From assembly GCA_016124845.1 (NCBI GenBank), contig WGMW01000040.1, forward strand, positions 1 through 64,000: 64,000 bases of DNA. Reading direction: 5' to 3'. Both the position numbers and the translations under genes were made by a program. The stretch comes from Flavobacteriales bacterium (lineage in GTDB: Bacteria; Bacteroidota; Bacteroidia; UBA10329). Below, piece after piece: positions 47,246-63,428 of the stretch; position 1 is the first letter of the stretch, and each line of letters opens with the position of its first letter. The notes beneath the pieces were generated by a model. The model made no database searches. It saw only the letters and a list, made by a program, of their open reading frames with translations, and was not told where the DNA came from.

Positions 47246-47506
47246 ATGAGCAACGTAGAAGAAGCAGCTGAGCGCCTGAAAACCCTTACCGAACGCCCAT
47301 CGAATGAGGAATTCTTGAATCTCTATGGGTTATTCAAACAGGCCACTGTTGGGGACAATAGAACTTCCAAACCAGGTATGTTTGACATGAAAGGTCAGTT
47401 CAAATGGAAGGCTTGGAAAGACAAAAGCGGTATGTCTCAAGAAGATGCTGCCGATGCGTATGTTGCGCTTGTTAACGAACTCTTAGGAAAGTACGAACAC
47501 TCCTAA
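47246..47506 (+). CDS. Acyl-CoA-binding protein
   Basis: The 86-residue protein is a small ACBP, a cytoplasmic carrier of long-chain acyl-CoA. The motifs YGLFKQATVGD and KPGMFDMKGQFKWKAW, which contact the acyl-CoA, are both intact. I chose ATG 47246, in line with the family's usual 85-90 residues; the open frame begins at 47180. It converges on the alkane hydroxylase gene with a 4-base overlap of stops. ACBPs are common in eukaryotes and scattered in bacteria, so its placement beside an alkB-like gene is notable. Confidence 0.9.
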   Translation: MSNVEEAAERLKTLTERPSNEEFLNLYGLFKQATVGDNRTSKPGMFDMKGQFKWKAWKDKSGMSQEDAADAYVALVNELLGKYEHS

Positions 47507-48588
47507 GCCGCCTGCGCCACAGGAATTCTCAGGTCATCCGGATATTGTTCCTGCAACGCCTTCACACGCGGATTCATCACCGCAAACCAAAGTGGCGGAA
47601 CCAGCGCCAACACGATCATCCCTGGATAACCGGTCGGCATTTGAGGTGAATCCTCAAAGTGACGTAGAACCTGATATTTCCTACTTGCTTTGTAATGATG
47701 ATCGCTGTGTCGGGTCAGCTCAAAAAGCAGCAGCCTTCCCATAGGATGGTTGCTGTTCCAGCTATGAATTGGCAGCACTTTCTTAAAACCCTTTTCTGTT
47801 TTGTGGCGGGCAAGACCGTAATGCTCAACGTAGTTGACCACTTCAAGAAGAGAGAAACCAATGACCGAGGCCGTCAATGTCAGTAGCATGGTCGGAACAC
47901 TGAAAATGACTGCAACAGCTACCAACAGACCGGTCTGGCAGAAAGCGTAGAATATCATCTCATTGCTCCAATGGTACCAAGGCAGGTCTTTCCTTCGCAG
48001 ACGTTCAACCTCCAAGGTCCAAGCAGAGAGATAACCCATTATTACCGAACGGAAAATGAACGTGTAGAAAACCTCGCCATATCGTGCTGTTGCTGGATCC
48101 TCTTCGGTGCTTACATTCTTATGATGTCCTCGATTGTGCTCGATGAAAAAGTGCATGTACTGAGCTGTCAAGAGCAACGCTTTCGCCATACATTGTTCTG
48201 ATTTCTTCTTTCTGTGACCAAGTTCGTGCGCCACATTTATCCCAAATGCCGCACAGCCGATGCCCATCGTAAAGGTCATACCTGCAATTTCATAAGCAGC
48301 CAGATCGGGTTGGCTCACTTCATACATGAAGAAAATGAACAGCGCCCATTGTACCGGAACGATCGCATAGACCAAGTAATCGTAGATCCTGTCATTTCGC
48401 TCCACTTCTTCCTCGGCTTCAGAGAGATTGACCGTTGAGCCTTTGCTGATCAACTCAATGATCGGAATCATGATGTAAACAAAAACAGGAAGAAACCACG
48501 ACCACATTCCCTTCTCATAAAGCGCATAGAATCCGACAACGGGAATCAGAAAGACAAACAAGTATTTAAGTGCTCTGAATTTTGGCAT
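47503..48588 (-). CDS. AlkB-family membrane alkane 1-monooxygenase
   Basis: The product of about 362 residues has six membrane segments and the histidine boxes of AlkB: HELGHRKK, EHNRGHHKN and RHSDHHYKAS, plus the NYVEHYGL motif. These bind a di-iron centre facing the cytoplasm that hydroxylates the terminal carbon of alkanes or alkyl chains. The start at 48588 was chosen because the upstream frame (to 48852) overlaps the TetR gene on the opposite strand. Rubredoxin, its usual electron partner, is not present nearby. It is divergent from a TetR regulator and convergent with the acyl-CoA-binding protein. Confidence 0.92.
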   Translation of the reverse strand: MPKFRALKYLFVFLIPVVGFYALYEKGMWSWFLPVFVYIMIPIIELISKGSTVNLSEAEEEVERNDRIYDYLVYAIVPVQWALFIFFMYEVSQPDLAAYEIAGMTFTMGIGCAAFGINVAHELGHRKKKSEQCMAKALLLTAQYMHFFIEHNRGHHKNVSTEEDPATARYGEVFYTFIFRSVIMGYLSAWTLEVERLRRKDLPWYHWSNEMIFYAFCQTGLLVAVAVIFSVPTMLLTLTASVIGFSLLEVVNYVEHYGLARHKTEKGFKKVLPIHSWNSNHPMGRLLLFELTRHSDHHYKASRKYQVLRHFEDSPQMPTGYPGMIVLALVPPLWFAVMNPRVKALQEQYPDDLRIPVAQAA

Positions 48589-48635
48589 GATGAGTAAAAT
48601 TTGGTTGACACTAAAGTAGAAAGAAAAATCCATTA

Positions 48636-48662
48636 GTAAACTATTTTTCATTTTTAGTTTAC
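48636..48662. promoter_or_regulatory. Candidate TetR operator
   Basis: GTAAACTA (48636-48643) and TAGTTTAC (48655-48662) form a perfect 8-bp inverted repeat with an 11-base spacer, in the divergent region between alkB-like and TetR genes. It overlaps the regulator's -7 element TACCTTTG (48660-48667), so binding could repress the regulator and control the alkane gene. Confidence 0.65.
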
Positions 48663-48667
48663 CTTTG
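48660..48667 (+). promoter_or_regulatory. -7 element TACCTTTG of TetR gene
   Basis: TACCTTTG is a perfect TAnnTTTG. The start codon (GTG 48670 or ATG 48673) is only 2-5 bases downstream, so the message would be leaderless or nearly so. Confidence 0.55.
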
Positions 48668-48672
48668 TTGTG

Positions 48673-49275
48673 ATGGGAAGACAATCTGTAGCGAAAAAAC
48701 GAATTAAGGACCCGATAAAACGGGATGCTTGGATTGAACAGCTTCTGCCCTACTTCATCCAGAACGGCATTAAAGCAACACCGATCGATGAGGTTGTTTC
48801 CATTCTTGGAAAATCGAAAGCCACGGTTTACAAGCACTTCGAATCGCACCACGAGATCGTTTCATTGGTCATTGCGCGGAAGCTGAACGACCTGAAGCAT
48901 TTTGTTCCAATTCTCGGTGATCCATCAAAGACATATCAAGAACGCTATGTGCTGGCTGTTGCCTATATCTCCAAACATTTGGGAGATGTGAGTAACGTTT
49001 TCCTCTCCGACCTGAAAGAGATCTATCCAGACCTGTGGAATCTTATCAACTCCTTCAAACTAATGGCTTTGAATGAACTGCGAACCTTTTACATCAGCGG
49101 CATCCAGGACGGAACGTTTGAAGACATCAATCCTGACCTGATGGTATTGAGTGACGAACTTTTCTTCGATGCGCTGACCAATCCCGAATACCTCACTTCC
49201 AAAGGGCTGAATCTTCAGGCTGCGTTTGAAAGCTATTTCAAGATGCGATTCAACGGTATTTTGAAGCGCAGCTGA
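48673..49275 (+). CDS. TetR/AcrR-family regulator
   Basis: The 200-residue protein has an N-terminal TetR helix-turn-helix (LLPYFIQNGIKATPIDEVVS to SKATVYKHFESHHEIV, about residues 20-65) and a helical ligand domain. It is divergent from the alkB-like gene and probably regulates it, responding to an alkane or fatty acyl ligand, by analogy with family members at such loci. A GTG at 48670 is an alternative start. A likely operator and -7 element lie immediately upstream. Confidence 0.88.
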   Translation: MGRQSVAKKRIKDPIKRDAWIEQLLPYFIQNGIKATPIDEVVSILGKSKATVYKHFESHHEIVSLVIARKLNDLKHFVPILGDPSKTYQERYVLAVAYISKHLGDVSNVFLSDLKEIYPDLWNLINSFKLMALNELRTFYISGIQDGTFEDINPDLMVLSDELFFDALTNPEYLTSKGLNLQAAFESYFKMRFNGILKRS

Positions 49276-50515: not shown

Positions 50516-51124
50516 TTACTTGATCAGACCCAATCCCTCAATCGCAGATTCATCATCTGGAGAAAGCAACAGCACCTTATTGAATAGCACTTTGGCCTCA
50601 CGCATTTTGCCCATTTTGAGGCTCGTCCAAGCCATCATCAGGTTGAAATCGTAATCGAACGGATAGAGGTTGAAACCGACCTGAAAGTGCTGAAGCGCCT
50701 TATCGAATTCCTCTCTTCCGTAGAAAATTAATCCCAAACGATAATGCGCCTGCGAGTTCTTGGCGTCAATGCGCAGAATGTCTTCGTACTGCGATTTTAC
50801 CTGATCCCAATTTCCAACTGCCGCTGCTGGATACACATAGCCAAATTTTGCCTCAACCGAAGCGGGCATCAGGTCGATGGCCTTTTTGTAATAGCTCATG
50901 GATTCGGTGAAAAGACCTGCCGAATAATGCAACCAGCCCAAGCGCAGGTTGAGTTCATAAGATGTTTCGCTATAAACCGCTTTCAGGTCTTTGATCGCCC
51001 CAGAAAAGTCGCTGTTGGACTCTTTTGTATAGCTACTCTTGAAAGCCGTTTGCAGTTCTGACGACTGTCCGAAGACACCCAAGGAAACCAACACGGAAAA
51101 CGCTATTGCAAGGATACTTTTCAT
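50516..51124 (-). CDS. Exported TPR protein, last gene of PqqD operon
   Basis: This 202-residue protein has a signal peptide (MKSILAIAFSVLVSLGVF) and four or five tetratricopeptide repeats (for example LRLGWLHYSAGLFTESMSYY, VQYEDI-like repeats and AHYRLGLIFYGREEFDKAL). It should be periplasmic and bind other proteins. It starts 2 bases after the beta-barrel gene and so belongs to the same operon. It probably scaffolds an envelope complex with that protein. Confidence 0.82.
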   Translation of the reverse strand: MKSILAIAFSVLVSLGVFGQSSELQTAFKSSYTKESNSDFSGAIKDLKAVYSETSYELNLRLGWLHYSAGLFTESMSYYKKAIDLMPASVEAKFGYVYPAAAVGNWDQVKSQYEDILRIDAKNSQAHYRLGLIFYGREEFDKALQHFQVGFNLYPFDYDFNLMMAWTSLKMGKMREAKVLFNKVLLLSPDDESAIEGLGLIK

Positions 51125-51126
51125 GC

Positions 51127-52338
51127 TTAGAAATTATAGTTCAAACCTACGTAGAAAGAGTGGAAATTATAGTTGAAAGATCGGCCACGTCCGTTTTCTG
51201 CTCCCAAGGCAGAAGTAGATACGTAAAACGAGCGCGATTCAACCGAATATGTGACCGACATGCTGAAATGGTCGGTGACATAATAGGTGGGTGAAATGGA
51301 CCACAACCATTGCAATCTATCTCCACTATTGTTGCTGAAATCCATATTTCCATCCTCGATCATCCAGATCTGATGTCCCCAAATGAAGGTGCTTTTGACC
51401 CACGCCCGTTTGAAAAGCTGTCCTCCGATGCTTTGCGACACGAACGGATTGGGAGCCTTTCCGCCAAAGTTGTAACCGCCAGAAGTGATGGTGTACAATT
51501 TGGTTGAACCGAGCGGGTACCAGACCAACGAACCGCTTACAATATACTTGAGTGTATCTGAACTGGACTTTCCGGATTCACGGTAAATACCACCGTTTAC
51601 AGACAAACGAAAATTGCCCAAATGCTGTTTGACGCTCAGCGCACCGCTAACATCCAGACCTGAAAGTGATGTGTCCTTGACCGACCAATTCAGTAGAACA
51701 ACAGACGGTGTGATCGTAGTATGCTTTGCCACTTGAATGCCGATACTGGCCAAATAACCGACCTGCCAAACGTTATAATCAGCCCGCGCTGGATAGGTGC
51801 GCCTACGCTGACTGAGATAACCGACACCATGCCGCAATGTAATGCGCTTACCGAACTGATGGCCGAGATAGAGCGCAAAGTATGGCATGTCGCCCACAAA
51901 GTTCTGTGAAGTGGAAGCACGGTAACCTCCCAATGCCGAAATGCTGCTCAGAAATTTCGGCTTCATAACCTGAAACGTGTCCTTCTCGGCTTGTGACATT
52001 TTCGAACTCGTCACCAGCGCAGATTCGACATTTCCCGCATAAACAGATGACCAGTAACCGTAGCGTTTTGAGAACGGGTCGGCACTATTGAATTTCAAGG
52101 CTTTTTCAAATTCCTTTTCGGAGCGGAAATACTTGCCCAGCATGAAGTTGGCGTAGCCGTTCCGAGCGCGGATGTAATAGTAATCGGCACCCGATCTCTT
52201 GGCCAGTTTTCCGAGTTTCAGAACCCGTTTCCAATCGCCTTTCATGTAGGCGTTGTACTGGGCAGAATCTGACCAGACCTGCGAACGTCCGTTCATCGCA
52301 ATGAGCACAAATGATATGACGATCAGCGCACTTCGCAT
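51127..52338 (-). CDS. Outer membrane beta-barrel protein with N-terminal TPR-like region
   Basis: The 403-residue protein has a signal peptide (residues 1-19) followed by a TPR-like helical region (about residues 25-110, with YNAYMKGDWKRVLKLGKLA and FEKALKFNSADPF). From about residue 125 it has alternating amphipathic strands and ends YVGLNYNF, an aromatic C-terminus typical of outer membrane barrels. YaiO-like proteins have a similar layout. It overlaps the UT-M23 gene by 16 bases. In the operon it may serve as the outer membrane part of an export or recognition complex. Confidence 0.78.
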   Translation of the reverse strand: MRSALIVISFVLIAMNGRSQVWSDSAQYNAYMKGDWKRVLKLGKLAKRSGADYYYIRARNGYANFMLGKYFRSEKEFEKALKFNSADPFSKRYGYWSSVYAGNVESALVTSSKMSQAEKDTFQVMKPKFLSSISALGGYRASTSQNFVGDMPYFALYLGHQFGKRITLRHGVGYLSQRRRTYPARADYNVWQVGYLASIGIQVAKHTTITPSVVLLNWSVKDTSLSGLDVSGALSVKQHLGNFRLSVNGGIYRESGKSSSDTLKYIVSGSLVWYPLGSTKLYTITSGGYNFGGKAPNPFVSQSIGGQLFKRAWVKSTFIWGHQIWMIEDGNMDFSNNSGDRLQWLWSISPTYYVTDHFSMSVTYSVESRSFYVSTSALGAENGRGRSFNYNFHSFYVGLNYNF

Positions 52339-54509
52339 GTGAACACTTTTTCGTTGCCATCCTTGCCGATAATGAACTTTGAGATCCCTTTGGAATCAAG
52401 TTCGATACGGAAATCCTTCTGCCGCTGTACGTTTCCAAGTGCTTTCACCTTGAGCGAAGAACTCAGCTTCATCCACTCCGCTTCCAGCGAATCATCGATC
52501 TCATCATAACTGACCTCATATTCTACTTTCACAACTGGATAAAATGGCGATGCAATGTCCAGCAACCCTTTGAGGAAACCTGAATAGATGTCATTTACAG
52601 GGAAATGGTCGGTGACCTTCAGATCGCGGTAGAAACCGAGCATTACCTTGTAGACGCCTGTGTAGAATTCGAACAGCGGTGATTTTTTATCCCCGATAAA
52701 TCGGGTGAAGTAGAACAGCGTTTCATTGTTCACGAAGTAGGCAATTGCTTCGCTCCTGTGGCAGTAGATATATGTGCTATTGTATGCATCCGTAAAAACC
52801 TCCCACTTGAACTTTTTTCCATCCGATTCCAAGTTCAAAACCATCCCAGGAATGAGATTGAACGCCTTTTTCAGTAATGGATCCACTTTAATGTTGGAAA
52901 TGGTCTGCCCTTCCTGTGGATAATCGAACGCATGGAATTTCAGACCATCAGCGGTTTTCTCCATGTAGTAGGCCACGGGATACTTCATTGTCTTACTGCC
53001 GATGTAGGGTGTGGCCTGCATCTGAAAATGGATATGTGGCTCAGGAGAACGTCCCGAATTTCCGAGGGAAGCAACGACCTGGCCTTTCTTCACGGGATCA
53101 CCGACCGCAACTTTTATACTGTCCTTTTTTAAATGACTGAGCTGGGTGAACATGCCATCGCCATGACGGATGACCACGGTATTTCCCCAGTTTTTATCCA
53201 GGTTGACATCGCCAATGGCGTTTTCCTCAATTTCACTTTGTACAGCTGCCACCCAACCTGCCTGTGGCGCTACCACAGGACGGTTGAATCCGTAAAAGTC
53301 TTCCAACTGCGTTCCAGGATTCCGATAGGTCTTCCCCTCCTCATCCTCTATCACAAAATCGAACGCTTCTTTCCACTCTCCTTTATGAGTGATCTCGCCA
53401 TCATGTCCTTGCGAAACCGTCCATTCGCCATAAAATGGCAGATAAATATGGAAATAGGTGTCGTTGGCGTAACGCTCCTGCTGGTTCAAGAAACGGTAAA
53501 GGTTTATCTCTGGAGAATAGGATTGCTCTACAATTGGAGTAAGCCCTTTTGGCGCCAATCTCAGCTTCAAAACATAAAGCGTAACCAGAACAAGTACGTT
53601 ATACGGAAGCGAGTAGATCGGCAGCTGAACCACGGCAAACACATTTCCGATTGCCGCGATGAGAATGGCAATGACTGGCGATGCCAGCGCAACCATCAGG
53701 AACGTTCCACGGGAAGGAATGGTGAAAAAACCGCCCAACGCAATGGCGGACAGAATGAAGTTGAAACCGATGTAGCTGTAATGTAAATGCGAGAACTGCC
53801 CTTCCATAAAACTGAAGAAAAGGTAACCGCTAAAAAAACCGATCAGCGAAAGCACAAATGCAATCCGCGAGAAGCGGATCAACCCGATCATGATGACCAG
53901 TCCTGCCAGAATATTGAACTGAAAGAAGATAGCTCCGAGCGACCTTAGATATACGTCCAGAATGTCGGGAATGGGCAGGTTATCGACCTTATCGTAGAAG
54001 TTGACCAACGCTTCGCCACCATACGACCAAAGTTCATTGATGGTATAGATGCCGCGCTCGGTGAGTTGCAACCCACCGAATTCTCTACCAACCAAAAGAA
54101 CGGTCCAAACCCCAAAAAGGAATGGAATACTCATGATGGGCAAGCCGTATTTGCTCAACTGCGCATTGATGGCCAAGGTGAAGAAGAGTGTAAACACAGA
54201 CATCAGCACCAGCAAGAGAATGAACGGCACGTTCATATCGTAATACACCGCCATCACCATTCCCACCATCACGCTGTTGAAGCTGTACATGCCTTCGCGG
54301 ATGTTCTTGTGGTCGAAGCCCAGAAAGTACGCGGTGAGAATGGCTATGAGCCCAGCAACGATCGCACTGATACCGACATACGGATCAATGAAGGAACAGA
54401 GCAGAAGGACAACGGCAAACACCTTGTCCAGACTGAAAAAAATCTGAGAGTAGCTGTGTAGCAGCCCCTCCCAGATCAATTTCCAAGTGTATTTCTGAGT
54501 TTCCGTCAA
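52323..54509 (-). CDS. Urea-transporter-like domain fused to degenerate M23 (LytM) domain
   Basis: The 728-residue protein has about ten membrane segments in residues 1-335 that match the urea transporter (UT) family (LLCSFIDPYVGISAIVAGL, VVLIDPYV-like repeats, GMYSFNSVMVGMVM). Residues about 375-510 form a LytM/M23 domain with VVIRHGDGMFTQLSHLKKDSI and the motif PHIHFQ, but the first zinc ligand His of HxxxD is absent (the region reads TQLEDFYGFNRPVVAPQAG), so the peptidase is probably inactive. A C-terminal region of about 200 residues is unassigned. The start codon is TTG, overlapping the decarboxylase stop by 4 bases. Confidence 0.82.
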   Translation of the reverse strand: MTETQKYTWKLIWEGLLHSYSQIFFSLDKVFAVVLLLCSFIDPYVGISAIVAGLIAILTAYFLGFDHKNIREGMYSFNSVMVGMVMAVYYDMNVPFILLLVLMSVFTLFFTLAINAQLSKYGLPIMSIPFLFGVWTVLLVGREFGGLQLTERGIYTINELWSYGGEALVNFYDKVDNLPIPDILDVYLRSLGAIFFQFNILAGLVIMIGLIRFSRIAFVLSLIGFFSGYLFFSFMEGQFSHLHYSYIGFNFILSAIALGGFFTIPSRGTFLMVALASPVIAILIAAIGNVFAVVQLPIYSLPYNVLVLVTLYVLKLRLAPKGLTPIVEQSYSPEINLYRFLNQQERYANDTYFHIYLPFYGEWTVSQGHDGEITHKGEWKEAFDFVIEDEEGKTYRNPGTQLEDFYGFNRPVVAPQAGWVAAVQSEIEENAIGDVNLDKNWGNTVVIRHGDGMFTQLSHLKKDSIKVAVGDPVKKGQVVASLGNSGRSPEPHIHFQMQATPYIGSKTMKYPVAYYMEKTADGLKFHAFDYPQEGQTISNIKVDPLLKKAFNLIPGMVLNLESDGKKFKWEVFTDAYNSTYIYCHRSEAIAYFVNNETLFYFTRFIGDKKSPLFEFYTGVYKVMLGFYRDLKVTDHFPVNDIYSGFLKGLLDIASPFYPVVKVEYEVSYDEIDDSLEAEWMKLSSSLKVKALGNVQRQKDFRIELDSKGISKFIIGKDGNEKVFTCEVR

Positions 54510-55864
54510 AGTTTAAACTCCTTCAGGTAATCAGGCATTTGTTCCTGCTGATCGATATTGGACAGTTCCTCACGCTTACGGATCAGGTGCGGTTTGTTCT
54601 GCAGATCGATCATCACCACGGCAGGCCGAAGCGCAATGAACTGCATCCATTGGGTCATGTTGTACGCACCAACGGTGTGAACCACTACTTGATCGCCCCG
54701 CTTCATTGGTGGCAGCGTAGCATTCTCGCGCACCACATCGATGTTCATACACAGCGGCCCGTACATCACGGTATCTTCCGTGTGGTGGCTGAACTCCTGC
54801 GCAGGACTGATCTTGTGATCATACCAGAACGAAGTGAACATGATATTTACCCCGAAGTCCATGATCGTTGCCTTGCGACCATCGCTCAAACGCTTGTTCG
54901 AGATCACGGTTCCAAGCAGGTAACCTGCCTCATCGATCATTGCACGACCTGTTTCCAGAATCAGCAGTGGCAACTCATCTTCCACAAATCCAGCATTCAT
55001 GATGGAGGTTGAAATGGCCTCCGCGTAATCATCAAATGTTGGTGAAGTATCATATCCTGAAAGGAATGAGCCTTTGAGCGTGTTCTTGGAAGCAAAACCT
55101 CCGCCCATATCGATATACTGAATCTTCTTGCCGTACTTGCTTTGAATGCTCAACGCTAGCTCGGAAAGTTTGGTGGCAGCCACTCCGTACGCGTTCGCGG
55201 TCAACATGAATGTTCCGATGTGGCAGTGTAACCCGACCAGATCCATTCTATCGCTCAATACGATCTTATTGATGGCATCCCACGCTTGTCCGTTCTCGTA
55301 GTTGAAGCCGAAACGGTCCCACATTGGGTAAATGCCTGTATCCATATTGATACGGATGGCCACTTTCGGACGGATTCCTGTCTCTTCGCAAAGCTCCGTG
55401 AGCGTATAGAGTTCATCCAAGTGATCGATGTGGATCAGTGACTTGTTCTCCATCGCTAACTTCAGTTCATCCACGGTTTTGTCGGGTCCGTTGAAAATGA
55501 TCTTGGAACCAGGCACACCGTTCTTCAGCGCTTTCTGGTATTCGAAGCCTGAAACCACTTCCGCCCACGAACCTAACTGATGGTAAACGTTGCATACCGC
55601 GCTGATGTAGTTGGTCTTGTAGCTCCAGGCAAACTGCACCTTCGGATAGCGTGTGGTGAACGCACGCGTTGCATCCTGATACGTCTCGTGGATCTTCTTC
55701 TGCGAGATGACGAACAGCGGAGAACCGTAATCTGCCAGCAGGTCTTTCACCGCGCAATCGTCAATGTGTGTTACTGGTTCGTACTCTGTCTTAGTACCGA
55801 ACTTGTTCATTACCCCTGTGTTCAGCCTTCGGATAATTGGTCTTTCATAGCGCTGCTTTTCCAT
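54506..55864 (-). CDS. PLP-dependent decarboxylase, fold type III
   Basis: The 452-residue enzyme is related to diaminopimelate/ornithine decarboxylases. The PLP lysine is K83 in AWSYKTNY, the phosphate loop is DMGGGFAS, the second glycine region is ILETGRAMIDEAG, and the catalytic Cys is C371 in GPLCMNID. The substrate cannot be read from the sequence. The N-terminus has a basic 24-residue extension (RPIIRRLNTGVMNKFG) before the barrel, unusual for the fold. It overlaps the UT-M23 gene by 4 bases and follows an ATP-grasp gene by 126 bp in the operon headed by a PqqD-like gene. Confidence 0.85.
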   Translation of the reverse strand: MEKQRYERPIIRRLNTGVMNKFGTKTEYEPVTHIDDCAVKDLLADYGSPLFVISQKKIHETYQDATRAFTTRYPKVQFAWSYKTNYISAVCNVYHQLGSWAEVVSGFEYQKALKNGVPGSKIIFNGPDKTVDELKLAMENKSLIHIDHLDELYTLTELCEETGIRPKVAIRINMDTGIYPMWDRFGFNYENGQAWDAINKIVLSDRMDLVGLHCHIGTFMLTANAYGVAATKLSELALSIQSKYGKKIQYIDMGGGFASKNTLKGSFLSGYDTSPTFDDYAEAISTSIMNAGFVEDELPLLILETGRAMIDEAGYLLGTVISNKRLSDGRKATIMDFGVNIMFTSFWYDHKISPAQEFSHHTEDTVMYGPLCMNIDVVRENATLPPMKRGDQVVVHTVGAYNMTQWMQFIALRPAVVMIDLQNKPHLIRKREELSNIDQQEQMPDYLKEFKL

Positions 55865-55990
55865 TTGTATTCGGTTTTTGGTTATCTGAAATGATGCTGG
55901 CTGTTACGAATTACGAATCCTTTCGAATATGACGAATTCACTTACCGAAAAACCAACTTTTTCTTGTCAACTTATTATCTGTTCAACTGA

Positions 55991-57064
55991 TCAACTTGCT
56001 CTCTTCTTCGAAGAAGGTCCAAGCTCACCTGTCGTTGAAATCTCCTCAAATTCCTTCATGTTCACGATCAGGTCCCATGAGTAGCGGATGAACATCTTCC
56101 CGATCTCGTAATCGGTAAAGGTCTCAACCTTCTCTCCCAGCGCCAGTTTCACCAACGCTTCCGGAAGGTTCTGTCCGCAGCCTACGGCCAGATACACCCA
56201 AGCTGGGAACCGAGGATTGATCTCGAGCAGGTAATATTCATCATCGCTTGTTTTGATGTACTCGAGCTCCATGCCGCCACGCCACTTCGAACTGGCGATC
56301 ATTGATTTGGCCTCTTTCAGCAGACCTTCATCATCCAAGCTCACTCCTGCCCAAGCTTTTCCCTTATCGGTGATGTATTGCTTGCGCATCGGCACCGCTC
56401 CTACCATGTTCCCTTCGCCATCGCCAAGGGCCACAATATTCACTTCAGTTCCATAAACGAACTGCTGAATGACGATCGGCAATCCCCACTTGGCCGCGAT
56501 CTTATTGAAGTATGTGACCACCTGCTCCTGATTGTAGGCAATGTGTGCATCGTAAAACTGGCCTTTGACAACAACAGGATATGTGAAGTCCTGAGCCAAC
56601 TTTGGAACCTCGGCCGTGGAGAAGATCATCTTGCTCTTTGGAACCAATAGCCCGTGCTTCTCTCCGAACTCTTCCAAGTTCACCTTGTGGCGAGCCTCAA
56701 ACTGCTCTACCGAAGGAAGGAAGGTCTTGATGTTCAACTCCTTCTCCATCCTGTCTGCCAGTTTGATGAAGTTGTAAAGCTCTGCATCGAAATTCGGGAT
56801 AAGCACATCGATGTTCTCCAACGAGTTGATGTAGGCAATGCGACTGTAGATCACCTCTGTTCCAGACTTCGGAAAAGGTATCTGGTAAACGTAATCTACC
56901 ACATCATGCATGTAAATGCCTGGCTCAAGTGCCTCATAACTCAAACCGATGATGCGTACATCGAACTCTTCGCTATCTCGCAGCGCGCGGATCACAGGTA
57001 CTCCCGGTCCTGGACTGTCAATGTTGTTCAGTCCCGTAACTGCTATGGTGAGTTGCTTTTTCAT
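55991..57064 (-). CDS. ATP-grasp ligase
   Basis: The 357-residue protein has an N-terminal nucleotide-like domain (AVTGLNNIDSPGPGVPVIR) and an ATP-grasp fold with YPVVVKGQ (near residue 160), GMELEYIK and the metal site LLEINPRFPAW (near residue 285). ATP-grasp enzymes join a carboxylate to an amine. Its gene follows a PqqD-like gene by 2 bases and precedes a decarboxylase gene by 126 bp, so it probably acts on a peptide or amino acid bound or recognised by the PqqD protein. Substrates are unknown. Confidence 0.85.
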   Translation of the reverse strand: MKKQLTIAVTGLNNIDSPGPGVPVIRALRDSEEFDVRIIGLSYEALEPGIYMHDVVDYVYQIPFPKSGTEVIYSRIAYINSLENIDVLIPNFDAELYNFIKLADRMEKELNIKTFLPSVEQFEARHKVNLEEFGEKHGLLVPKSKMIFSTAEVPKLAQDFTYPVVVKGQFYDAHIAYNQEQVVTYFNKIAAKWGLPIVIQQFVYGTEVNIVALGDGEGNMVGAVPMRKQYITDKGKAWAGVSLDDEGLLKEAKSMIASSKWRGGMELEYIKTSDDEYYLLEINPRFPAWVYLAVGCGQNLPEALVKLALGEKVETFTDYEIGKMFIRYSWDLIVNMKEFEEISTTGELGPSSKKRAS

Positions 57065-57066
57065 AA

Positions 57067-57315
57067 TTACTCTGCGTCAAGAAGTTTGTATTGCCCCAAC
57101 ATTTTCAGGAAGTCGTAGTAGTCCTTGTCAAACGTATCATCATCCACATCATACGATGTGCGGACCATGGTTTTGATCTCGGCCTCACTCTTGCCGTCCT
57201 TCATCAGTTTGAGGATGTCTGTTCCAACTCCGTTCAGCGAGAACGAGTCTCCGGTTGTCGGGTTGAAAACGAATCCTGACTCACTTACTGCGATGTTTTT
57301 CTTTAAACTGATCAT
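57067..57315 (-). CDS. PqqD-like RiPP-recognition-element protein
   Basis: The 82-residue protein has the PqqD/RRE fold pattern: strands ISLKKNIAVSESGFVFNPTTG and DSFSLNGVGTDILKLMKDGK followed by helices with KSEAEIKTMV and DKDYYDFLKMLGQY. Such domains bind the leader of a peptide to be modified. It is the first gene after the AraC-type regulator (131-bp gap) in a run of six tightly packed genes. No short precursor gene is visible beside it, which leaves the target open. Confidence 0.85.
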   Translation of the reverse strand: MISLKKNIAVSESGFVFNPTTGDSFSLNGVGTDILKLMKDGKSEAEIKTMVRTSYDVDDDTFDKDYYDFLKMLGQYKLLDAE

Positions 57316-57446
57316 GGCTTCCTTGTTTTATGGTTATTCAATTGTCTGATTCAAAGTAACGGGTTGTGTTCGGGCCGCCTTTTACAGTATTAATAGTTCC
57401 TTGTGTAACATTCGAAGCGCTTCTACCCTATTCAACCGGAAAGGTT

Positions 57447-58022
57447 TTAGACAAGTCTATCCAGCGGAATCCGACCCCCACCTTTACCTTCTTTAAACTG
57501 TTTGGGAGTAACACCCGTTACCTGCTTGAACTGGTTACTGAGATACTGCACACTACTGTATCCCATTTGGTATGATATTTCACTGAGCGATAGGTCTTTA
57601 TAACTCAAAAGTTCCTTCACACGCTCGATCTTCAGAAGGATGATGTACTTCTCCAGCGTGGTGTTCGTCTGTTCCGAGAAAACCCGGCTGAGCTGATGAT
57701 AAGGCATTCCGGTACGTTCACTCAAGTGGTCGGAATTTCGGATAAGCGAATTGGCGTTATTCCCGTGGTAAAAAAGCTCAATGGCAGCCGCCTTGATCAT
57801 CTCCACGGTCTTCTGTCCGTCATCTTCCACCAGCGAGAAACCGATGGATGGAAGCGCATCAATGAACTGGGCCAACTGTCGGTCATCATCATAACCTACA
57901 ACTGCACGGCCAAGCGAAATACGCTCCACTTCGGTCATGTCCAATTGCTTAAGCATCTGGCGCACCGCCACAATGCAGCGGCTGCTTACCATGTTGCGGA
58001 TATAGAGTTCTGCTGCTTGCAT
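57447..58022 (-). CDS. AraC-family regulator with HMA-like N-terminal region
   Basis: The product of about 191 residues has a C-terminal AraC helix-turn-helix (ERVKELLSYKDLSLSEISYQ and YSSVQYLSNQFKQVTGVTP) and an N-terminal region AELYIRNMVSSRCIVAVRQ. In many Bacteroidota relatives this reads NMVCxRC, resembling an HMA copper-chaperone fold; here the first Cys is Ser13 and C16 remains. It may sense a metal or redox state, or have lost this ability. It is encoded upstream of the PqqD operon in the same direction. The start at 58022 avoids ten residues encoded upstream to 58052. Confidence 0.82.
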   Translation of the reverse strand: MQAAELYIRNMVSSRCIVAVRQMLKQLDMTEVERISLGRAVVGYDDDRQLAQFIDALPSIGFSLVEDDGQKTVEMIKAAAIELFYHGNNANSLIRNSDHLSERTGMPYHQLSRVFSEQTNTTLEKYIILLKIERVKELLSYKDLSLSEISYQMGYSSVQYLSNQFKQVTGVTPKQFKEGKGGGRIPLDRLV

Positions 58023-58104
58023 CGTCCGCCAAATTAATATTATCGGAATCAATCAAGCGTTACAGAATTGTCAACAGGTTTAATGAGATTGAAATTTCCT
58101 GAAC

Positions 58105-58158: not shown

Positions 58159-58917
58159 TTATTCGATGGTAACCGATTGGGTTTTAACTTTTTCCGTTAC
58201 GAAGAAAAACTGCTTGCCAGATTTTGTGGCAGCTTCAATCTTGTAAGGAGCCACCTGCGCAAAATTGGATCCTGAGCCCATGCCATCTATCTCTGCCTCT
58301 GTAAATGTGCTCGAAGTGGCGTTTCCTGCTTCCACATGCACCACACCTCCGAGCATGAAATACACCGAATCAGCACCAGTCACATTGGAGACCGATAACG
58401 TATAATTTCCGGTGGCAGGGACGGTGGTTGCACTTGAAATGGTTCCAAGTGTTGGAAAACCGATGCTTGTTGTGTGCGTGAAGGCGGGAATATCGCCCGC
58501 GCCACCGACATCCCATGATGCTGTGGAGCCGAAATCGATTCCAGACGGATTGGTCTGCGAGGGAGTGTAAGCATAGGAATTGTTCTCGTACTGAGTCAGC
58601 GACTCACCTTCGGCAGAGACCGAACCGGCATTCACAAACGTGCTGTAATCGGTGCCATTGAAAAAAGCTGCCGCAGCAATTCCAAGCTCTATCTCCTGAG
58701 TTGGCAGCCCGAATCCTGGATCGATCGTGGTAACCGTTTTTACGGCCGATAATGTTCCATAACCTTCACCAACTGTAGGTGTTGGAGGATCGCTTGCAGG
58801 ATCGGAAGGCGTGCTGGTATCGTCTTTTTTTGTGTTGCACGATGCAACGGCAAAGGAAACAGCACCGGCCAAAACCAGAAACCGCGCCCACTTGAATGTT
58901 TCGCTCAAAGTTTTCAT
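58159..58917 (-). CDS. Hypothetical lipoprotein
   Basis: I do not recognise this 252-residue protein. It has an SPII signal with lipobox AVASC26, a Ser/Thr/Pro-rich linker (TSTPSDPASDPPTPT) and a beta-rich body with motifs such as FTHTTSIGFPTLGTISS. It ends KVKTQSVTIE and lacks a T9SS domain. It is probably anchored in the outer membrane. The gene is closed by a strong terminator and is not linked to neighbours. Confidence 0.7.
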   Translation of the reverse strand: MKTLSETFKWARFLVLAGAVSFAVASCNTKKDDTSTPSDPASDPPTPTVGEGYGTLSAVKTVTTIDPGFGLPTQEIELGIAAAAFFNGTDYSTFVNAGSVSAEGESLTQYENNSYAYTPSQTNPSGIDFGSTASWDVGGAGDIPAFTHTTSIGFPTLGTISSATTVPATGNYTLSVSNVTGADSVYFMLGGVVHVEAGNATSSTFTEAEIDGMGSGSNFAQVAPYKIEAATKSGKQFFFVTEKVKTQSVTIE

Positions 58918-61299: not shown

Positions 61300-61343
61300 A
61301 CTACGAATTGTATTTTCACGGCTCATTCTCAATTCCAGTTCAA

Positions 61344-63428
61344 ATGTTCTCACGATTTCTGCTATGCCTTTACGCCCTTAGCGTATGGCAAATTGCCTTT
61401 TCACAGACCATCGACCCGAAAGATGTGACCATTGTGCGCGACCCGTTCGGAGTGCCGCACATTTTCGGGAAGACCGATGCCGATGCCGCTTATGGTCTTG
61501 CGTATGCACATTCTGAAGACAACTTTCACGACATCCAGTTGGCGGTGCTGGCCGGGCAAGGTAGGTTGGGAGAAGTGACCGGAAAGGAAGGCGTGCTTTT
61601 CGATTTCGGTCTGAGGTTGCTGAACATCGACTCGCTGGTGGAAGCGCGGTTCGAAAAAGACCTGTCGCCCGAATTCAGAGCCACGCTGCAAGCCTATGCA
61701 CAGGGTTTGAATGATTTTGCGGCCAAGCATCCGAAAGAGGTCCTTCATAAAAAACTCTTCCCTGTGGAAGCGAAAGACCTCGTAAAAAGTTCTACGCTGA
61801 GCGTTTCGCTGATGGCAGGTTTGGGCATGGCGTTGAAAGCGGTGAATGAGAACCGCGTGGAAGAATTCCTCGGTTCCAATGAAGCACATACCGGAACAGG
61901 CTCCAATGCATTGGCAGTTGCATCCGAAAAAATGGATGACGGACTTCCTTATTTATTGGTCAATTCGCATCAGCCGATCGAGGGACGATTTGCATGGTAC
62001 GAAGCGCACGTGGTAAGTGATGAAGGTTGGGATTGCATCGGAGGACTTTTTCCTGGTGGCACCACCGTTTTTGTCGGCTCGAACCAGAACCTTGGCTGGG
62101 GGCACACCTTCAACTACCACCAGTTTGGCGACATCTATAAATTGGAGATCAACCCGAAAAACAAGAACCAATATAAATATGATGGTGAGTGGAAGGATTT
62201 CTACATCCGAAAAGTGAAGTTGAAAGTGAAAGTGGCGGGAATGAGGATTCCTGTCTCTCGCAAGGTGAAATGGTGTACTTACGGCCCCGTTTTCGAGAAC
62301 AAGTACGGTTCGTGGGGATTCCGATTCCCTGCATACAACGACATTCGGGCAACCGAACAATGGTTCCGAATGAACAAGGCCCAAAACTTTGGGGAGTTTA
62401 CCGAGGCGATGAAAATGCAAGCGGTTCCACTCTTCAATACGGTGTATGCAGATAAGGACGGAAACATCATGCTGCACTCTGGCGGAAAAATGCCCAAGCG
62501 CAATCCAAAGCTCAATTGGACCTATCCTATCACGGCCAATACATCTGATTACAAATGGACGGAGATCCTTGATTATGAGCAGCTGCCACACGTGGAAAAT
62601 CCCGAATGCGGTTTTGTTTACAACGCCAATAACACACCGCTCCATTGCACAGGCGACAGTTGCAATTGGAATGAGTATTTCCCTGGACTTCAGACGTTTG
62701 AGTACAACCGAGGCGAGCGTTTCGGCTACCTGATGAAAAGCCATGAAGGATCATTTACGGAAGCCGACCTGAAGCGCATCAAATTCGACATGAAGTATCA
62801 CCCGAATGGAATTTACGAGCACAAATTCGCAGCCATGTACAACTTGGACGAAACGAAATATCCAGACATTGCCGATGCCATCCAAAAACTGAAACATTGG
62901 GACAAAGCGGGCAATGCCGATAACATGGATGCGGCCTTGGCCATGGTCACGCACGAGTTTCTCCGCCAAGCCATTGATGCACCTTTTGCGCTGCTGATGG
63001 TTCGGCAGGAACCGCTTTCGGAGGAAATGGCCGTGGACGCCATCCGCAAAGCGAAGAAATTGCTACTGAAAACGCACGGAACATTGGATGTTCCTCTCGG
63101 AGAAGTTCAACGTCTTGTAAGAGGAGATGTCAGTTTCCCGGCCAACGGTCTTCGCGAAGTTCCACGCGCCAGCGACACCAAACTGCACGACAAGAAGAAT
63201 GGAATCTATAAGGTAACGGGTGGCGATGGTTACATTCAGATAGCGCGGTTCGGGAAAGATGGCGTGAACATCCGCAGCATCAATGCGTTCGGTGCAAGTT
63301 CTCGGCCAGAGAGTTCGCATTACACCGACCAGATGAAACTCTTCACCGACCACGAATACAAGCAAGTTCCAATGGACAGAGCAACATTGGAAAAGAATGC
63401 CGAGCGGGTATATCATCCCGGAGAATAG
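61344..63428 (+). CDS. Penicillin-acylase-family Ntn hydrolase, exported
   Basis: The product of about 694 residues has a signal peptide (MFSRFLLCLYALSVWQIAF) and the penicillin acylase architecture: an alpha chain with VRDPFGVPHIFGKTDADA, then the self-cleavage site TGTGSNALAV with the N-terminal nucleophile Ser187, then a beta chain including WGHTFN, LFNTVYADKDGNIMLHSGG and the YNRGER region. Members hydrolyse amides such as penicillins, cephalosporins, N-acyl homoserine lactones or lipopeptides in the periplasm; the substrate here is unknown. The gene follows the response regulator and may be under its control. Confidence 0.9.
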   Translation: MFSRFLLCLYALSVWQIAFSQTIDPKDVTIVRDPFGVPHIFGKTDADAAYGLAYAHSEDNFHDIQLAVLAGQGRLGEVTGKEGVLFDFGLRLLNIDSLVEARFEKDLSPEFRATLQAYAQGLNDFAAKHPKEVLHKKLFPVEAKDLVKSSTLSVSLMAGLGMALKAVNENRVEEFLGSNEAHTGTGSNALAVASEKMDDGLPYLLVNSHQPIEGRFAWYEAHVVSDEGWDCIGGLFPGGTTVFVGSNQNLGWGHTFNYHQFGDIYKLEINPKNKNQYKYDGEWKDFYIRKVKLKVKVAGMRIPVSRKVKWCTYGPVFENKYGSWGFRFPAYNDIRATEQWFRMNKAQNFGEFTEAMKMQAVPLFNTVYADKDGNIMLHSGGKMPKRNPKLNWTYPITANTSDYKWTEILDYEQLPHVENPECGFVYNANNTPLHCTGDSCNWNEYFPGLQTFEYNRGERFGYLMKSHEGSFTEADLKRIKFDMKYHPNGIYEHKFAAMYNLDETKYPDIADAIQKLKHWDKAGNADNMDAALAMVTHEFLRQAIDAPFALLMVRQEPLSEEMAVDAIRKAKKLLLKTHGTLDVPLGEVQRLVRGDVSFPANGLREVPRASDTKLHDKKNGIYKVTGGDGYIQIARFGKDGVNIRSINAFGASSRPESSHYTDQMKLFTDHEYKQVPMDRATLEKNAERVYHPGE

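Follow-up and report, generated by a model that had tools for sequence, protein, structure and literature searches.

RREs are commonly regarded as binders of precursor peptides and serve as markers in the search for peptide natural products. In butirosin biosynthesis, the ATP-grasp enzyme BtrJ ligates an amino acid, and the conjugate, held on an acyl carrier protein, is decarboxylated by the alanine-racemase-fold (AR-fold) enzyme BtrK. Urea transporters (UTs) are passive channels, and E187 of dvUT is part of the polar ladder of the UT pore. Discrete RREs of the lasso type bind the leader motif [Y/W]xxPx[L/V/I/F/A]; in LppB, D70 hydrogen-bonds the leader Tyr, and N33 fixes the kink at the Pro, against which F74 packs (PMC13381572). 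YxxP is a catalogued lasso motif that tolerates hydrophobic substitutions (PMC12710340). The members of the FigC/FslC clade of decarboxylases, which includes SbnH, MccE and BtrK, act on conjugated amino acids, and BtrK and MccE decarboxylate carrier- or peptide-bound substrates (PMC7857480). FigC has a Met in place of the acidic residue that binds the free side-chain amine.

Relatives of these proteins are encoded next to each other in the stretch of 64,000 nucleotides analysed here (the window), from a Flavobacteriales bacterium. A sequence-only reading had described six nearly contiguous minus-strand genes with an AraC regulator upstream, and the ORFs match this arrangement exactly, with concurring family scans: PqqD and ATP-grasp are separated by 2 bp and ATP-grasp and decarboxylase by 126 bp, the decarboxylase overlaps UT-M23 by 4 bp, UT-M23 overlaps the barrel gene by 16 bp, and barrel and TPR genes are 2 bp apart. 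The features, all on the minus strand, are as follows.

57447..58052, minus strand: AraC-type regulator, upstream of the operon and likely a local regulator (PF12833, HTH_18)
57067..57315, minus strand: PqqD-like stand-alone RRE, 82 aa (PF05402)
57121..57123, minus strand: codon of PqqD Asp65, predicted hydrogen-bond partner of decarboxylase tail Tyr6, on the basis of covariation and the register with LppB D70
55991..57064, minus strand: ATP-grasp ligase, 357 aa, CPS/PRK12767-like (PF15632, E 4e-10)
54506..55864, minus strand: PLP decarboxylase of the alanine racemase fold, 452 aa, nearest to FigC/FslC (PF02784 and PF00278)
55787..55864, minus strand: N-terminal tail of the decarboxylase, 26 residues, MEKQRYERPIIRRLNTGVMNKFGTKT, leader-like and the predicted docking tag for PqqD
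52323..54509, minus strand: UT-M23 (PF03253, E 5e-56, and PF01551, E 3e-17)
53571-54464, minus strand: urea-transporter-type channel of UT-M23, residues 16-313
53016-53285, minus strand: M23 metallopeptidase domain of UT-M23, residues 409-498, predicted cytoplasmic
51127..52338, minus strand: outer-membrane TPR-barrel protein (AlphaFold2 model)
50516..51124, minus strand: secreted TPR protein, 202 aa, matching TPR families, with a signal-peptide-like N-terminus (by eye) and a conserved position

From searches at the level of phylum, class and order, together with a scan of GTDB genomes, we gathered 183 distinct operons from Bacteroidota and from some MAGs labelled Ignavibacteria/Chlorobiota, a recurrence well past what chance would produce. 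Among the operons with enough contig, 172/174 have PqqD, 137/137 the decarboxylase and 114/118 UT-M23; all six genes occur in 88 of 107, and some of the 'missing' barrels and TPR proteins are divergent homologues. The ATP-grasp search of the phylum sample retrieved 22 of 247 genomes at E < 1e-94, separated by a sharp gap from the next match at about 1e-13, and the operon is common, being present in 22/247 sampled genomes of the phylum, 75/395 of the class and 36/116 of one order. In all related loci from the phylum search PqqD lies upstream and the decarboxylase downstream of ATP-grasp, and in most of them UT-M23, barrel and TPR protein then continue. The GTDB scan yielded at least 563 ATP-grasp relatives; the best 80 of these, mostly from uncultured Bacteroidota with a few labelled Ignavibacteria/Chlorobiota, show the same gene order as the window. 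In one locus (L101) PqqD is displaced one gene further upstream. The sequence-only reading depended on the gene set recurring in other genomes, and the 183 operons and their conserved gene order bear it out; genome comparison thus supports well the existence of a recurring six-gene system. Four operons (L084, L115, L193 and L215) are reduced to PqqD, ATP-grasp and decarboxylase, which suggests a core made up of these three genes. We found no description of the gene set in the open-access literature, and as far as that literature goes the operon appears to be previously unnamed. The viral contigs searched contained no relatives of the system.

The regulator upstream of the operon varies, being of the AraC type in 27 loci, mostly directly upstream of PqqD, and LytTR-like in 15. 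The N-terminal part of the AraC-type regulator in the window (57447-58052) is weakly similar to a heavy-metal-associated domain (NF041115, E 3e-4). Five of the GTDB MAG records containing the operon (L060, L082, L083, L092 and L128) are titled Bifidobacterium breve, Chryseobacterium gleum or Sphingobacterium thalpophilum, titles that are probably wrong.

The PqqD protein is the only one of its family in the window's genome and in several other genomes. Its PF05402 match and its nearest solved relatives, the lasso-peptide B1 RREs (TbiB1, 5v1u, E 1.8e-12 for the profile), agree with the earlier view of it as an RRE-type peptide binder. Given this relationship, we searched for a precursor peptide near the operon, and no short precursor ORF was conserved in or around it across loci. 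The sole detectable ligand motif for PqqD lies instead at the N-terminus of the decarboxylase, so that the separate peptide substrate of the earlier reading is not upheld. A classic RiPP pathway, with PqqD binding a precursor peptide of its own, would fit the kinship with lasso RREs, but the lack of a conserved short ORF beside the operon, of a second tail-like protein in 23 genomes and of an annotated lasso cyclase or B2 peptidase beside the window's operon makes it very improbable. Neither a B2 peptidase nor an asparagine-synthetase-like lasso cyclase was found in the window's operon or in the neighbours scanned.

Every readable operon decarboxylase begins with a tail of the pattern [Y/F]E[R/K]Px[I/L]......G..[N/S]K[F/Y]G. 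Among the 96 decarboxylases that match this pattern, residue 6 is Tyr in 75 and Phe in 21, and the Pro and the Lys are present in all 96; two further readable decarboxylases (L038 and L043) carry the tail behind an over-extended start. In AlphaFold2 models of the decarboxylase alone, tail residues 8-20 have pLDDT values below 50, compared to mostly above 90 for the catalytic domain, so that the conserved tail lies outside the fold. When 23 operon-bearing genomes were searched with a tail profile, the operon decarboxylase was the sole match in each (E 1e-11 to 1e-20; next match > 0.2), and among solved proteins there was one chance match (E 0.22).

The [Y/F]ExPx[I/L] part of this tail matches the published leader motif of lasso RREs, and the binding pocket is likewise recognizable in PqqD. 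In an ungapped register set by hand, with the numbering shifted by five, LppB N33, C39, Y60, D70, F74 and M78 correspond to N28, I34, Y55, D65, F69 and L73 of the window's PqqD. Of 96 sequences, 95 have Asn at position 28 and one has a gap there; the other pocket positions are strongly conserved with the exception of 65. In the 143 operons whose tail has Tyr, residue 65 is without exception Asp or Asn, and in the 20 with Phe it is always Tyr, Ser, Ala or His (one operon with masked bases excluded). The pair formed by PqqD residue 65 and tail residue 6 ranks first of 36,612 PqqD-decarboxylase column pairs (mutual information with APC, z 10.6), the next-best partner of tail residue 6 reaching z 2.5. 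Tail residue 6 is also the sole zero-error predictor of the residue-65 class among all decarboxylase and ATP-grasp columns, with six errors for the runner-up. On the tree, the tail residue switched three times, once as a reversal to Tyr, and each time on the same branch as the matching switch of residue 65; three independent switches are few, but they affect the position predicted by the published LppB structure. The identity of the motif with that of lasso RREs, the covariation of residue 65 and its correspondence to LppB D70 together provide good sequence support for a docking of PqqD on the leader-like tail of the decarboxylase, with a predicted hydrogen bond between PqqD Asp65 and Tyr6. 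The operon PqqD thus shares fold, pocket residues and the YxxPx[hydrophobic] ligand motif with lasso-peptide B1 and discrete RREs (TbiB1, FusB1, LppB), and differs from B1 RREs, which bind a precursor peptide, in that it is predicted to bind a tag at the N-terminus of an enzyme.

The decarboxylase itself is closest to the N-citrylornithine decarboxylases FigC/FslC (7kh2, E 1.7e-85 with the profile; first rank in Foldseek), and shares with this group, known from rhizoferrin and including SbnH, MccE and BtrK, the Cys-Met motif and the Thr and Tyr of the specificity helix. Met373, after the catalytic Cys, is invariant in the operon decarboxylases. Unlike in FigC/FslC, however, the citrate-binding His357 and Arg387 of FigC are replaced, as read from the alignment, by invariant Ile375 and Gln405, the operon encodes no NIS synthetase, and the enzyme carries the N-terminal tag; the Arg that binds the distal carboxylate in DAP decarboxylase corresponds to Thr344. 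Together, these residues suggest as the probable substrate an amino acid joined to a neutral group other than citrate. As its nearest relative is an N-citrylornithine decarboxylase and not LysA, the enzyme probably acts on a conjugated amino acid supplied by the ATP-grasp ligase, although substrate class and chemistry are here deduced from family and pocket residues.

The scores of the decarboxylase fall below the cut-offs of both the lysA family (221 bits; cut-off 298) and the FslC family (227 bits; cut-off 500). Its fold and annotation are those of a family of ordinary metabolism, and it could in principle be a second LysA or a polyamine enzyme with unrelated neighbours. Nevertheless, a true LysA is encoded elsewhere in the window's genome, the operon is kept with PqqD in 172/174 cases, and the specificity residues of DAP and ornithine decarboxylases are absent, leaving this reading with hardly any likelihood. 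The earlier claim that the ATP-grasp and decarboxylase genes are not ordinary housekeeping genes therefore holds, as the genome has its own LysA and the operon is conserved.

The ATP-grasp ligase is related to the large chain of CPS (1a9x, E 1e-15 with the profile) and has an invariant ExNPR motif. In Streptomyces zaomyceticus, a relative of this ligase (136 bits with the family profile) is fused to an AR-fold decarboxylase with the Cys-Met motif in a single protein of 758 residues, in which neither the decarboxylase tail nor a PqqD match was found. The fusion supports the idea that ATP-grasp and decarboxylase would act together. On the plasmid of this species (L271:9998-12855), the fusion gene is followed by genes for a 195-aa Cys-His transglutaminase-like hydrolase (by eye) and a fatty acid desaturase, and the locus is possibly a related pathway in Actinomycetota. 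A further ATP-grasp match, in Haloarcula, lies in a polysaccharide context and was discarded as unrelated.

Conservation of the tail extends beyond the docking motif, because Lys21 is invariant and NKFG near-invariant; pure docking does not need this, and it counts against a view of the tail as a docking tag only. The tail could instead be the substrate: PqqD would present the Lys21 (NKFG) segment for attachment of an amino acid by the ATP-grasp ligase, the decarboxylase would act on this tethered amino acid, and M23 would release the product. Besides the conservation of Lys21 and NKFG, the disorder of the tail in the isolated model, the predicted cytoplasmic location of the peptidase domain and the carrier- or peptide-bound substrates of the relatives BtrK and MccE (PMC7857480) agree with this. 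However, the Streptomyces fusion has neither the tail nor a PqqD match, and the covariation between tail residue 19 and ATP-grasp residue 286, despite its high score, is a single-clade event with exceptions and was dropped. The simplest reading is that the link made by covalent fusion in Streptomyces is made here by RRE and tag, and coupling is for this reason favoured over the tail as substrate, which we regard as distinctly unlikely. The fuller version, a decarboxylase with its own RiPP-like leader and core that is loaded with an amino acid on Lys21, and a channel-linked M23 that releases and exports the product, would be at least as doubtful; if the tail were the core, the system would represent a protein-tethered route that dispenses with an acyl carrier protein.

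In UT-M23, the UT fold is shared with dvUT and UT-A/UT-B, and the equivalents of Q24 and F27 are mostly kept. Unlike in these transporters, the position of dvUT E187 is never Glu in 113 sequences (Ala, Ser, Leu, Gly and others), the channel is fused to M23 and the genome contains no urease. All UTs of M23 length in the phylum sample come from operon-bearing genomes, and UTs elsewhere are about 300 aa long and without M23; on these grounds, and given the genome without urease, urea metabolism was rejected as the role of the operon. The Zn-binding/catalytic M23 residues H375, D384, H459, H492 and H494 are present in 113/113 sequences, with a longer spacing between the first His/Asp pair than in the classic HxxxD. 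Positive charges occur in three places, the N-terminus, the presumed cytoplasmic loops and the stretch directly past the last membrane segment. Cys is more frequent in the M23 part, at 1.13 per 100 aa, than in the TPR and barrel proteins, which are exported and contain about 0.3. Combined with the N-in/C-in topology of UTs, these features favour a cytoplasmic M23 domain and not the periplasmic one of the sequence-only reading, a placement that would be at odds with the usual one of M23 enzymes.

The AlphaFold2 model of the barrel protein (pLDDT 92) shows N-terminal TPR helices followed by a beta-barrel of about 14 strands. It has no match in Pfam or NCBIfam, and its nearest solved folds by Foldseek are OmpG, FadL and BcsC (TM 0.4-0.5). 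TPR repeats and an outer-membrane barrel are also found in the exporters BcsC, PelB/PelC and PgaA; the operon protein differs in its short TPR part, in its approximately 14 strands and in lacking an accompanying polysaccharide synthase.

In the mechanism that we propose, the peptide groove of PqqD would hold the leader-like tag of the decarboxylase and thereby bring this enzyme to the co-encoded ATP-grasp ligase, through a putative contact. The ligase would form an amide by conjugating an amino acid to an acceptor, and the decarboxylase would strip the alpha-carboxylate from the conjugated amino acid to leave an amine-bearing amide. UT-M23, a channel for small solutes that bears a predicted cytosolic metallopeptidase domain, might then hydrolyse the small product, move it across the inner membrane, or both, with the TPR protein and the TPR-barrel serving periplasm and outer membrane. 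Both the role of M23 and export as the direction of transport are conjectural. The logic resembles that of butirosin, ATP-grasp ligation and then AR-fold decarboxylation of the conjugate, but the operon lacks an acyl carrier protein and has instead an RRE, a tag and envelope genes.

It also counts against this mechanism that most amide conjugates would not fit through the narrow UT pore, and that 4 of the 118 operons with room lack UT-M23. Channel and barrel might also work in the opposite direction, importing a small compound, be it an amide, urea-like or derived from the wall, for processing by cytosolic M23, ligase and decarboxylase. The passive nature of UT channels, a predicted cytosolic M23 with all its catalytic residues and the resemblance of the barrel to porins and uptake channels (OmpG/FadL) all suit uptake, which we nonetheless consider unlikely because the genome has no urease, an ATP-consuming ligase is better suited to synthesis, and the TPR-barrel proteins BcsC and PelB, among others, are exporters. 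In all, we consider an RRE-coupled cytosolic pathway of two enzymes with an envelope module to be reasonably probable as a whole.

Here the RRE seems to recognize a tag carried by its partner enzyme. Binding of this kind would account for some of the orphan PqqD genes and would caution against labelling each RRE locus as a RiPP cluster. RRE and leader tag would also offer a natural scaffold for enzyme coupling.

Other ORFs were noticed near the operon. In one group of genomes, secreted proteins of about 280 aa with a T9SS-like sorting domain (by eye) are encoded in eleven loci (L036:8417-9262 and ten others), mostly directly upstream of PqqD. In the window, the ORF at 58159-58917, between the regulator and a DUF6798 protein, is secreted or lipoprotein-like and without a Pfam or NCBIfam family. 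The ORF at 47503-48852 contains AlkB-type His motifs (HELGH, HNRGHH) and probably encodes an alkane monooxygenase-like membrane hydroxylase (by eye), and that at 61308-63428 is penicillin-acylase-like (Ntn hydrolase; by eye).
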